Assembly (NCBI GenBank): GCA_022560655.1
Contig: JADFSS010000002.1
Coordinates: 19,049 to 83,048, forward strand
DNA: 64,000 bases
Direction: 5' to 3'
Source: Candidatus Neomarinimicrobiota bacterium
GTDB lineage: Bacteria > Fidelibacterota > Marinisomatia > SCGC-AAA003-L08 > TS1B11
Shown here: positions 42,668 to 47,517 of the stretch, piece by piece
How positions within the stretch are numbered: position 1 is the first letter of the stretch
How the letters are laid out: every line of letters starts with the position of its first letter
Position numbers and translations under genes: made by a program
The notes under the pieces: generated by a model
What the model saw: only the letters and a program-made list of their open reading frames with translations
Told to the model about the DNA's origin: nothing
Databases searched by the model: none

Positions 42668-43255
42668 GGCCTGCCCCTCACGTTCGCTTCGGTTCCGGGC
42701 CGGCCATCGGGCTGGGTAAAAACGAGGGCCACTGCCTTCCCCATAATCAAAAAAGGAGTCCCGCATTAACTGCACCGACTCCCCGAACTGAAGAAAGGTC
42801 GTATGGTCTGGCTGAGGATTCCACGGCTCTGCCTATATTCTTCGCGAGCATTTCTTTGGCACGGCCCCCCACGCTTCGTAATGTTGCACAAGGTGTTTGA
42901 TCCGCGCCGAACGATACCTCCGCCGCCCTGAGTATCGAGTATACAGCTTAAAATATGAATGAGAAAGGAGTAATTATTCCGCTTGATCCAGCGACCCGGG
43001 GCGCACTGAATTTCCGGGCAGTAATGGTCGCGGAATGACCTGTTTAAAGCCACGGCCAACCCTATTCGCCCTGGGCCATCTTGGGCCCGACAGATCTCCA
43101 TGTTGGTCACGACATTTTCGCCCGTTTTGATTTTCAGGGCCTGCCGGGGTAACTAAACTAGCAGCTGCTTAGGCCAGCTGGCAGGCAGACCGGAACAATG
43201 TACGCATGCGCAGATAATCATGCCCCCATCAGGGGCGACTGAGTTTGGAGAGGAG
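42668..43255. other. 588-base intergenic region without a supported gene
   Basis: This is the divergent spacer between susC and the DUF3179 gene. It is locally AT-rich near 42940-42980. Short open frames on the minus strand have no ribosome-binding site or family similarity. I see no convincing promoter or riboswitch. Confidence 0.4.
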
Positions 43256-44290
43256 TTGAGCCGCCCCCGCGGTCTGCTGGTCCCATGGGCTGAATTCCTG
43301 CTCTATGGTATGTTGATCTCCGTCGCCTCACCCGCCAGTCTCCAGGCGCAGATAATTGATGGCGATCCGGTCTACGATGTGCTGCCCCGTGACGCCATCC
43401 CGGCTATCGTTGATCCCGAGTTTGTCACCGGCAAAAAGGCCCGCCGTATCATGGCTGATTGGGAACAGGTAATCGGAATCGTGGGGCCGGAAGGCACGGC
43501 CGTGGCCTATTCCACTTGGCACCTGGATCACCATGAGATCGTCGATGACGTGGTGGACGGCCTCCCACTGGCTGTCACTTGGTGACCGCTCTGCTTCACG
43601 GGCATCGTGTATGTCCGCACCGTGAATGACCAGACGCTGACCTTCGGCGTCTCCGGCAAGCTCTGGAGAGACGCCATGGTGATGTACGACCGCGAAACCA
43701 ATTCCACCTGGGCCCATGTCACAGGCAGGGCGATCACTGGCCCGTTGCTGGATGCCCAGCTGGAAACGTATCCGGCCCTGCAGACCACCTGGAAGGCCTG
43801 GCTGGCCGCCTATCCCGAGACCAAGGTGTTGAAGAAGCCGGTGCTCTACGGTTCCTCCTATGCGCGCTATAACGCCGATCCCCGGCGCCAGGGCATTCAC
43901 GGCCGCCGAATGGGCAGATCGTTGCTGCCCGCCAAATCCAAGGTCATCGGCTTCCAACTTGAGGAAAGCCCCTACGCGGTTCCCGTGCAGGCGTTGCTGC
44001 CCGGCAGCCTGACCGAACTCTCTGTCGCCGACGTACCCTTGTTGATCTTCACCGATGTGGCGGGCGAGGGGGTCACCCTCTGGCAGCGGGAATATGAGCA
44101 GGAAGTCCTCGACTTTACGCTGGTCGACAAGGATCAGCCCCGCGCTCGCACCGGTGATGGCCGGTCGTTCGATCTGGTCACCGGGGAGGAGGCCGGCGGT
44201 GGTCCACCACTTACCCGCATCCAGACCACAAAAGCCTACTGGTTCGGCTGGCACAATTTCTACCCGGAGACGCAGGTCGTATCCCCCTGA
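43256..44290 (+). CDS. DUF3179 protein with in-frame TGA, candidate selenoprotein
   Basis: A 344-residue exported protein of the DUF3179 family if the TGA at 43583-43585 is read through. The frame is identical on both sides. The family motif is TWCPLC; here it reads TW-TGA-PLC, so TGA replaces the first Cys of a CxxC pair. Downstream segments are intact (LTFGVSGKLWRDAMVMYDRE; WAHVTGRAITGPL), arguing against a decayed gene. A hairpin starts 11 nt after the TGA. The start is TTG 43256 with GGAG upstream; ATG 43220 is the alternative. The family's function is unknown, probably redox or metal-linked. Confidence 0.7.
43597..43624 (+). promoter_or_regulatory. Candidate bacterial SECIS hairpin
   Basis: GGGCAT (43600-43605) pairs with ATGTCC (43611-43616) with one G-U, around loop CGTGT. 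CAC (43597-43599) can add three pairs with GTG (43622-43624) across a bulge. The loop G at 43607 is 22 nt after the TGA, within the roughly 16-37 nt window of bacterial SECIS elements. Short hairpins are common by chance, so this is supportive only. Confidence 0.35.
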
Positions 44291-44445
44291 TCACGGGCTG
44301 AGCGTCGTAAAACCCGGCGCATCCAATCACGCGCGTACGTCTTGGCGATGCATCAATTAACGTTGCTTGATTGGGTGCCAATCCTTTCTGACAGCCATAA
44401 ATTAACACTGGTAGTTCTACAAATATATTCTTGGAGGTGAACCCT

Positions 44446-45852
44446 ATGCGTGGCGCGTATCGGTCTGCTTTAGTTTTGGCTGCGGTGCTGGCACTTCAGT
44501 CGATGCCAGTCCGGGCCCAGTCGGTTTTCCCCTATCCCGTGAAGAAGGTGACGCTGGACAACGGATTGGACGTCCTGCTCGTATCCATGCCCGAGTTCAA
44601 AGACGTACTCAGCCTGAATGTGCTAGTTCTGGCCGGTGCCGGAAACGAAACCGAAAAGGGAAAAACTGGCTTTGCCCACCTGTTTGAGCACATCATGTTT
44701 CGCCACGAGTTTAGGGGCCAGAGCGACGGCTACCGCAAAGCCATGAACAAACTGGGCGCCTTCAACAACGCCTGGACGTGGTTTGACGTCACTTTCTATC
44801 ACCCCCTGACATTTAGCTCCAACCTTGATGCGGTGACCCTCGCATCGGGCGAAGTGGTGCCCGGCCTCCTGGAGCTGGAGGCGTCCCGCTTTACGGCCCT
44901 GGAATTCGACGAAAAGATATTCCAGACCGAGACGGGCGCGGTGCTGGGGGAATACCGCAAGAACGCCACCAGTCCTGGCCTGGCCATGACCGAGAAGCAG
45001 CTGGAACTGGCCTATCCGCAGCACCCCTACGGACACACCACCATCGGATTCTTTCAGGATGTGGTGAATATGTCCCAGCACTACGAGTACGCCCGCTGGT
45101 TTTATGACAGCTATTACCGCCCCAATAACTGCGTGCTGGTGATTGCCGGCGACATCGATGTTGCCACGCTCAGCGCTAAGATCAACACTGCATTCGGTGG
45201 CTGGGAGTACCAGGAAACGCCGGTCATCGACGTGCAGGACCCGCCTCAGCAGGCGGAGCGCCGCGGCCACGTTGCCTGGGATGCTGACGTGCCGCCACGA
45301 GTCAATGTTGCCTACCTGGGGCCGAAGTTTGTCACGGGCAGCAAGGGCACGGCAGTGGGACAAATTCTCGGCGAACTGCTGACCTCCCGATCGGCGCCGC
45401 TGTTCCGCAAACTGCGCTTTGAGGATAAAGCCGTCAGCCAGCTGAATCTGAGCGCCACTGAGGGCTTCCACCGTCGGCTGGTGGAAATCAACGGGCAGCT
45501 GTACACTGATCAATATGCGGAAGGCGGCGAGAGCTACCAGGAGCGTGTCATTCAGGATATCATTGCGGGCTTTGGCGATCTGGAGAATTTTTCCTCCACT
45601 GAAAATGCAAACCGGATTCTTGAGATGGTAAAGAGCAAATACACGTACGATTTTTTGGCTCAGCTGAACAGTCCGGCCAATGTGGCCCTGCAGCTGGCCT
45701 ACTACTACCGTTTCGAGCGCGACCCGCAGGTCATCGACAAGCTGGTCCAGTCGGTGCAAGACCTGACCCCTGCCGACATTGATCATTACGCGCGGAAATA
45801 TTTTGTGGACAACAGCCGGGTGATCGTCACGATGGCCCCCAGGGAGGGCTAA
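44446..45852 (+). CDS. M16 family zinc peptidase (catalytic subunit type)
   Basis: A 468-residue exported peptidase. The signal peptide ends near SMPVRAQ. The inverted zinc motif is HLFEH (GFAHLFEHIMF), with the distal Glu in TETGAVLGEYRK, so catalysis is expected. The C-terminal half is the second M16 domain (RVIQDIIAGFG, TPADIDHYARKYF). The start at 44446 follows TTGGAGGTGA by 7 nt. It pairs with the next gene, an M16 without zinc ligands, as in heterodimeric periplasmic M16 proteases. Confidence 0.92.
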   Translation: MRGAYRSALVLAAVLALQSMPVRAQSVFPYPVKKVTLDNGLDVLLVSMPEFKDVLSLNVLVLAGAGNETEKGKTGFAHLFEHIMFRHEFRGQSDGYRKAMNKLGAFNNAWTWFDVTFYHPLTFSSNLDAVTLASGEVVPGLLELEASRFTALEFDEKIFQTETGAVLGEYRKNATSPGLAMTEKQLELAYPQHPYGHTTIGFFQDVVNMSQHYEYARWFYDSYYRPNNCVLVIAGDIDVATLSAKINTAFGGWEYQETPVIDVQDPPQQAERRGHVAWDADVPPRVNVAYLGPKFVTGSKGTAVGQILGELLTSRSAPLFRKLRFEDKAVSQLNLSATEGFHRRLVEINGQLYTDQYAEGGESYQERVIQDIIAGFGDLENFSSTENANRILEMVKSKYTYDFLAQLNSPANVALQLAYYYRFERDPQVIDKLVQSVQDLTPADIDHYARKYFVDNSRVIVTMAPREG

Positions 45853-45855
45853 GCC

Positions 45856-47517
45856 ATGGTTGCAAGCAAGTATCATGACCCCCATTTTGTCCTGCGATTC
45901 AGAGGTGCAGGCGCCAGGGGAGCCTGGCAACTGACCGCAGTCGTGCTACTGACGGTCGCATTGGGCTGGGCCAAACCGGTGAAGATCGTTGTTCTGAACT
46001 CCCCCTCGGAGCTAGTGCAGGTAAAAGTGATGGTGCGGGCCGGCTCGGCAAGCGACCCCGCTGGCCGTGAAGGCCTGGCAGCGCTTACTGGGCGCATGCT
46101 TTTGGATGGCAGCTTCGGCGACCCTTCCGCCCCGGTTACCAAGGACATGCTGGCCGATATTGTTCGGCCCTGGGGAGAGCAGGCAAGCCCCTCAGTGGTA
46201 GTCGAGAAGGAAACTTCCACCTTCAGTTTCACGGTACCGAAGGGCGTGTTTTCTGAGTACGCCGTCAAAGTGTTGCAGCCGCTTTTCACCCAACCCCTGT
46301 TTGCTGGCGACGAGCTTGAGCGCATCAGCAAGGAGACCAAAGTCTATATCTCAGCGACTCTTAGGCTGGAGAACACGGAGCTGCTGGGCCTCTATGCGCT
46401 GGACAACTACATCCACGAGGGGACGCCCTATGGGCACCTGCCCGCAGGCACCATCAGCGGTCTCAAAGCCATTACCGTTGAAGATGTGCGCCGCTTTTAC
46501 AAGACCTACTACACGGCGGGCAATATCACCGTGGGGGTCTCGAGCGGCGATGCCGATATCCAGCGCCTCATCCAGTCTTCGCTCAGTGGCCTTGGCCGGT
46601 CGGTGAGGGCGAAAAAGCTACGCAGGGTGCCGCCCAAACGGGCACCAGCCATCAAGGGCCGTGAGTTGCTTGTCATCACCCAGCCCACTACCATCGCCAC
46701 CGGTATCCATCTTGGCTATCCCATCAACGTTGACCGCCGTCACCGCGACTACTGGGCGCTCTATGTGGCCAATGTCGCGCTGGGTACGCATCGTGACAGC
46801 TTCGGCAGACTCTATAATGAAATCCGCCAGGCCCGCGGCTATAACTACGGAGACTACTCCTACATCGAGTGGTTTCAGAACCGGCCATTTGCACTGTTTC
46901 CCCCCACTAACACGCCCCGTAAAAATCAATACTTCAGCATGTGGGTGCGCCCCGCCGGCCACGAATATGCCCACCATCTACTCAAGGCAATCGGTTGGGA
47001 GCTGGAGAATTTTGTGCGGGATGGCCTCACTGGGGAGGAGGTGGAGTTGGCCAAGAACAAGGCCAGGGTGCTTTACCTGAATCTGGCGGAGACCTCCGAG
47101 CGGCTGCTGGCCTACAAGCTGGATGACAACTTCTACGATCAGCGTGGCAACGGCTTCCTTGATGGGTACCTGGCGGCCATCGATGCACTGACCCCTGCGC
47201 AGGTAAATGCCGCCATCCGACGCCACCTGCAGGTGGAAAACTTGAAGATTGTGATCGTGACCAACGAGGAGTGGGGTGCCCGCCTGGCCACCGATATTGC
47301 CGCCGGACAAAACGCGGGCGGCAAGGACGCCGCAGCCTATGACTTCCCCTCAAGAGAGGTGGATGATGAGCTGGTGTATGACATACCCGAGGACAAGCGC
47401 GCCGTTGTGGAAAAAGACCGGTTATGGGAAGCCTACCCCCTGAATCTTTCCGCGGGGCGGATACGGGTGGTCAGCTCCACCCAGCTGTTCGAAAGCGCCA
47501 GGCTGATAGGCCGCTGA
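45856..47517 (+). CDS. M16 family protein lacking the zinc site
   Basis: A 553-residue exported protein with the M16 fold (VKVMVRAGSASDPAGREGLA; TVEDVRRFYKTYYTAGNITV). Where HxxEH should stand the sequence is LAALTGRMLLDG, so it is catalytically dead and probably the substrate-binding partner of the preceding peptidase. An N-terminal hydrophobic segment (LTAVVLLTVALGWA) serves as the signal. It starts 3 nt after its partner's stop and is followed by a terminator. Confidence 0.9.
   Translation: MVASKYHDPHFVLRFRGAGARGAWQLTAVVLLTVALGWAKPVKIVVLNSPSELVQVKVMVRAGSASDPAGREGLAALTGRMLLDGSFGDPSAPVTKDMLADIVRPWGEQASPSVVVEKETSTFSFTVPKGVFSEYAVKVLQPLFTQPLFAGDELERISKETKVYISATLRLENTELLGLYALDNYIHEGTPYGHLPAGTISGLKAITVEDVRRFYKTYYTAGNITVGVSSGDADIQRLIQSSLSGLGRSVRAKKLRRVPPKRAPAIKGRELLVITQPTTIATGIHLGYPINVDRRHRDYWALYVANVALGTHRDSFGRLYNEIRQARGYNYGDYSYIEWFQNRPFALFPPTNTPRKNQYFSMWVRPAGHEYAHHLLKAIGWELENFVRDGLTGEEVELAKNKARVLYLNLAETSERLLAYKLDDNFYDQRGNGFLDGYLAAIDALTPAQVNAAIRRHLQVENLKIVIVTNEEWGARLATDIAAGQNAGGKDAAAYDFPSREVDDELVYDIPEDKRAVVEKDRLWEAYPLNLSAGRIRVVSSTQLFESARLIGR

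Follow-up and report, generated by a model that had tools for sequence, protein, structure and literature searches.

A probable selenoprotein of the DUF3179 family in Candidatus Neomarinimicrobiota with predicted tandem Rieske-like domains

Described DUF3179 selenoproteins and the locus under study

Two reviews include DUF3179, with the motif UxxC/T, among the selenoprotein families (PMC9312934; PMC13188914), in agreement with the statement, in a first-pass annotation of the present locus, that selenocysteine (Sec)-containing members of this family had already been annotated. The two reviews make no mention of Marinimicrobia or of any name beginning with Acidobacteri- (PMC9312934; PMC13188914). 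The gene described here belongs to the same Pfam family as the listed selenoproteins and has its predicted Sec at the position of their UxxC/T motif, whereas the forms UxxA, UxxV, UxxD and UxxS and a lead to the fold are added here. For the DUF3179 selenoproteins both reviews cite the 2007 work of Zhang and Gladyshev on the Olavius algarvensis symbiont. Literature searches for DUF3179 or PF11376 found no published function or fold of the family, and a search combining Rieske with selenocysteine or selenoprotein gave no such protein in titles or abstract starts.

Compared to Rieske ferredoxins, such as the naphthalene dioxygenase ferredoxin (2qpz), DUF3179 lacks the CxH...CxxH ligands and is built of two repeats, and its Sec would lie at a different turn, as judged from alignment ranges. 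NirD (2jo6), the small subunit of nitrite reductase, has a Rieske fold without the cluster and is not known to have a Sec or Cys site comparable to residue 122 of the protein studied here. The UPLC motif of our protein is shared with thioredoxin-like UxxC/CxxC redox proteins, from which DUF3179 differs in its predicted fold and in a second Cys that is not constant. What is new here is the internal duplication together with the Rieske-like structural lead, the family itself being already known as one of selenoproteins.

The gene is located on the plus strand at 43256..44290 of the window, i.e., the whole stretch of 64,000 nucleotides that was analysed (C2:19049-83048), which belongs to a 2.33-Mb genome (128 contigs, 95% complete). 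It has a TTG start and a terminal TGA at 44288-44290; the start was chosen by eye from the sequence, the TTG at 43256 being plausible with a GGAG upstream and the ATG at 43220 being an alternative, and residue numbers (Sec122, His105) are counted from the ATG at 43220. As the first-pass annotation had pointed out, a single in-frame TGA (43583..43585, plus strand; peptide context AVTW-TGA-PLC) occupies the column of the conserved Cys of the family. This TGA is the sole interruption of the plus-strand frame between 43220 and 44290, and the frame translated through it matches PF11376 from end to end (229 bits compared to a cut-off of 27; profile positions 1-292 of 292). Additional disabling mutations, which had been named as a sign against a selenoprotein, were not seen in this copy. 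On the genomic evidence set out below, we consider it very probable that this is a DUF3179 gene in which the TGA is read as Sec, and the insertion of Sec at residue 122 by SelB, taken as a step of its own, is predicted with near certainty. SelB and tRNA-Sec would insert Sec at the TGA during translation, and decoding of 43583-43585 as Sec would give rise to one full-length DUF3179 protein.

A second DUF3179 copy of the same genome, located on C40, has TGC/TGT at the Sec column and Thr three residues later. Downstream of the DUF3179 gene in the window, the same strand carries two genes for M16 peptidases, at 44431 and at 45856 (region 43256-47517). Two neighbour genes in matching order, BLAST-clustered together, were observed in G193 (L201) and G190 (L202), and the one neighbour gene that was checked, L202:3061-4473, is M16. 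When recurrent neighbours were compared over 18 stretches, with antisense ORFs over DUF3179 excluded, no family occurred in more than four of the 18 and no functional lead was obtained. A search of NCBIfam gave no result for the protein, and a sequence search of solved structures gave only chance globin matches.

Predicted fold and the site around residue 122

The structure model of the DUF3179 protein (pLDDT 91) revealed an internal duplication, with an N-terminal repeat (43457..43843, plus strand; residues 80-208) that holds Sec122 and a C-terminal repeat (43931..44287, plus strand; residues 238-356) that contains no Cys, both with a predicted Rieske-like fold. Structural matches to each half were Rieske-fold proteins in 50 of 50 cases among the matches listed, with weak Foldseek and profile scores; no Foldseek match to either half reached E 0.001 or better, and profile comparison with Rieske gave a probability of 6% for the C-terminal half and 0.5% for the N-terminal half. 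None of 96 DUF3179 rows matched the Rieske Pfam models at E 1 or better, and no conserved Cys/His columns corresponding to the CxH / CxxH ligands of the Rieske [2Fe-2S] cluster were found in these rows.

The C-terminal half aligned over 248-341 to positions 1-96 of 2qpz, and a piece of the N-terminal half (48-147, corresponding to residues 92-191) aligned to positions 2-96 of 4p1b. The Rieske ligands of 2qpz are presumably residues 45, 47, 64 and 67. Judged from the alignment ranges, residue 122 would be located near the beta3-beta4 turn and the positions equivalent to the ligands near 134-141 and 157-163, and no conserved Cys or His is found near residues 134-141 and 157-163. In the model, Sec appears to sit in a turn other than the Rieske ligand turns. 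An equivalence of Sec122-PLC to the Rieske CPxH and of His105 to CxH was also considered and rejected, since the alignment ranges as well as the alignment of the two halves to each other put residue 122 in another turn.

The near-constant features of DUF3179 are Sec/Cys122 and His105 (codon 43533..43535, plus strand), the latter being His in 90 of 96 rows. The first-pass annotation had seen the TGA as part of a CxxC redox pair. The TGA does stand at the first Cys, while the pair varies within the family: in 22 of the 68 Sec copies the second Cys gives way to A, T, V, D or S, and in 32 of the 69 Cys copies to T. The position three after Sec was occupied by C in 46 copies, A in 15, T in four and V, D and S in one each, and the position three after Cys by C in 36, T in 32 and A in one, so the second Cys is missing in 33 of the 69 Cys copies.

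According to the model, the protein would consist of tandem Rieske-like domains without iron-sulfur ligands, in which residue 122 lies at the end of a beta-strand, opposite His105. The selenolate would act as a single nucleophile, Sec beside His105 forming the redox-active site, and would be resolved by Cys125 where this residue is present and otherwise by an outside thiol. The full-length protein is predicted to be exported, and the combination of export (a signal-like N-terminus, seen by eye) with a single Sec-His redox site is put forward as a tentative prediction.

Alternatively, Sec may be inserted but coordinate a metal, with His105 and often Cys125 as further ligands, instead of acting as a redox nucleophile of the thiol type. 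Such a role would be in line with the resemblance of the predicted fold to electron-transfer proteins and with the Cys/His-rich columns near the site, i.e., 105 (His in 90 of 96 rows), 122 (96, the rows having been chosen so) and 125 (Cys in 52), and a fourth, 198 (His in 48). However, where position 125 is A, T, V, D or S, two constant ligands only would remain, the Rieske ligand motifs are missing, and no metal-handling gene recurs among the neighbours in the 18 stretches. Hence, we regard a metal site as unlikely and retain Sec122 as a redox nucleophile beside His105 as the preferred reading.

Decoding of the TGA across the family

Relatives were collected in two surveys, the first covering 245 genomes of the window's phylum and the second 396 genomes sampled from the phylum to which G245 (recorded as Acidobacteria bacterium) belongs; a narrow scan with one protein gave six loci. 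DUF3179 was found in 36 of the 245 genomes of the first survey, where one TGA was present in 16 of the 62 match rows (14 genomes) and none of the 62 rows carried any other stop. In the second survey, DUF3179 was found in 133 of 396 genomes, with at least 52 rows carrying one TGA in at least 46 genomes and, among the matches listed, no DUF3179 row with a stop other than TGA. The mixture of Cys and TGA that the first-pass annotation had suggested looking for among DUF3179 homologues was present at precisely this column. In the family profile alignment, TGA was located at the residue-122 column in all 68 distinct TGA copies fetched, which include the window's own and represent every one listed in both surveys, and the 69 distinct non-TGA copies fetched, comprising only those returned as loci or chosen for comparison, all had TGC (45) or TGT (24) at this column. 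The column alignment held 149 rows, of which eight duplicates (seven loci) were removed and four were second-repeat alignments. In the protein database, 93 of the 94 relatives spanning the column among the matches listed have Cys and one has Arg (P0076). A quick tree of 127 rows, restricted to rows with at least 230 domain residues, required six Sec/Cys changes, at least five when starred branches are counted.

Three loci, L065, L066 and L067 (G062, G070 and G071), form a divergent DUF3179 group with the motif SWUP[LV]CQ, and the N-half profile also picks up their second half, where the Sec column is occupied by Tyr or Asn. A distant relative, L068 (G192 C18:58442-59017), reads SF-TGA-GVCNSG with the TGA at the first Cys position, and is accompanied in G192 by an ordinary TGA copy, L059.

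For the codons after the TGA, the three closest pairs gave dN/dS of 0.05/0.19, 0.03/0.36 and 0.01/0.18, and these low values indicate that the region downstream of the TGA is constrained as protein by purifying selection. Under the ordinary code the frame breaks into pieces of 121 aa and 227 aa, as would be expected if a nonsense mutation or a sequencing error had turned a Cys gene into a pseudogene or a pair of fragments. In contrast, all 68 TGA copies fetched from the two surveys share the TGA column, TAA and TAG are lacking among the matches listed, the sequence beyond the TGA is under purifying selection and the genome encodes the Sec machinery, which makes this explanation extremely improbable.

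A predicted bSECIS hairpin is located at 43599..43617 (plus strand), with a stem of 7 bp (CGGGCAT / ATGTCCG) and the loop CGTGT at 43606-43610, whose G at 43607 follows the TGA by 22 nt, confirming the hairpin noticed in the first-pass annotation. The window's hairpin has a folding energy of -7.2 kcal/mol, and 12 of 100 synonymous-codon shuffles fold as well or better (p 0.12); since this hairpin alone is not significant, its significance derives from the comparison within the family. The Sec copies (n = 68) had a mean of -9.23 kcal/mol compared to -5.04 kcal/mol in synonymous shuffles (mean z -1.56; 22 copies with p ≤0.05) and thus beat their shuffles, whereas the Cys copies (n = 69) did not, with -3.33 compared to -3.54 kcal/mol (mean z 0.07; two copies with p ≤0.05). 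The hairpins of L065-L068 were weak. The 47 P-type copies align without gaps and have the majority form CGGGCRUCGUGUAYGYCCG. Of 45 distinct rows, 24 have G-C and 20 have A-U at column pair 22-30; this pair joins the first base of a Val/Ile codon to the third base of a Tyr codon, the two changing jointly. The covariation score of the hairpin was 0.382 compared to a shuffled mean of 0.154, with none of 500 shuffles as high, and 92.4% of hairpin cells pair. Changes on both sides were observed in five of the seven stem pairs, which was equalled by 26 of 500 shuffles and is less extreme than the covariation score. The best loop among the 68 Sec copies was CGUGU in 32 and GGUCU in 18. A search of Rfam near the TGA gave no result. 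The start codon of the truncated 227-aa frame, a GTG (43607-43609), is located inside the predicted SECIS loop, and among the 26 truncated relatives in the database 12 have a length of 227 aa.

The genes that the first-pass annotation had proposed to search for, i.e., selA, selB, selD and the tRNA-Sec gene, are all present in the genome. The tRNA-Sec scores 65.2 bits with anticodon TCA; selA (526 bits) and selB (343 bits) adjoin each other on the same strand of C62, their matched parts being about 20 nt apart; and selD (368 bits) has its own in-frame TGA in the context GAG-U-ACK. The genome thus encodes a complete Sec pathway, in which selD is likely to be a further Sec gene. Two selD loci were recorded in this genome (G000), L026 and L027 (C7 and C14), comprising the full selD with its TGA and another, partial match to selD (profile 165-310) in an open frame of 231 aa. 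Two tmRNA matches over the cut-off, L003 and L004 (G000 C13 and C21), possibly represent two copies or mixed strains.

A reading of the TGA as another amino acid, or plain readthrough without Sec, for which we found no supporting point, is hardly credible given the conserved covarying hairpin downstream of the TGA, the presence of Cys in its place in other copies, the complete Sec pathway and the use of TGA as the normal terminal stop of DUF3179 frames elsewhere, the window's own included.

For the distribution of selA, a match was counted as strong at E below 1e-60. In the first survey, strong selA was found in 14 of 14 TGA genomes, which is weak evidence alone because selA is common in the phylum (over the cut-off in 175 of 245 genomes). 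In the second survey, where the selA list comprised about 250-252 genomes, 43 of 46 TGA genomes had strong selA compared to 68 of 87 other DUF3179 genomes among the matches listed (p 0.027); the TGA genomes without strong selA were G562 and G291, with no match, and G325 (1.6e-15). Within one subfamily, selA was present in 20 of 20 Sec genomes compared to one of 11 Cys genomes (p 2.5e-7), a value that we rejected as overstating the strength of the association, since ten of the Cys copies form a single clade in the tree and the association may be one event. The eleventh Cys copy (G622, with selA) is placed elsewhere. Of the ten genomes of the Cys clade, five had no selA match and five had weak matches (3.3e-6 to 1.9e-5).

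Implications for the DUF3179 family

We speculate, as a possibility that is short of probable, that DUF3179 may represent a new exported selenoenzyme class derived from a Rieske-domain duplication, in which the iron-sulfur ligands were lost, a Sec-His site was placed in a different turn, and Sec and Cys were exchanged at least five times, one of these exchanges being in the Cys clade without Sec machinery.

The expectation that an ordinary annotation would fragment such a gene is borne out by the protein database, where 26 of 120 relatives among the matches listed start downstream of the Sec column, one of these having 98% identity to the window's product where the two overlap. Ordinary annotation thus truncates DUF3179 genes, leaving the Sec form widespread but hidden and the half with the active site missing. 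The lead to the fold, the near-constant His, a site that holds Sec or Cys only and the natural Sec/Cys pairs together make the function of DUF3179 testable.
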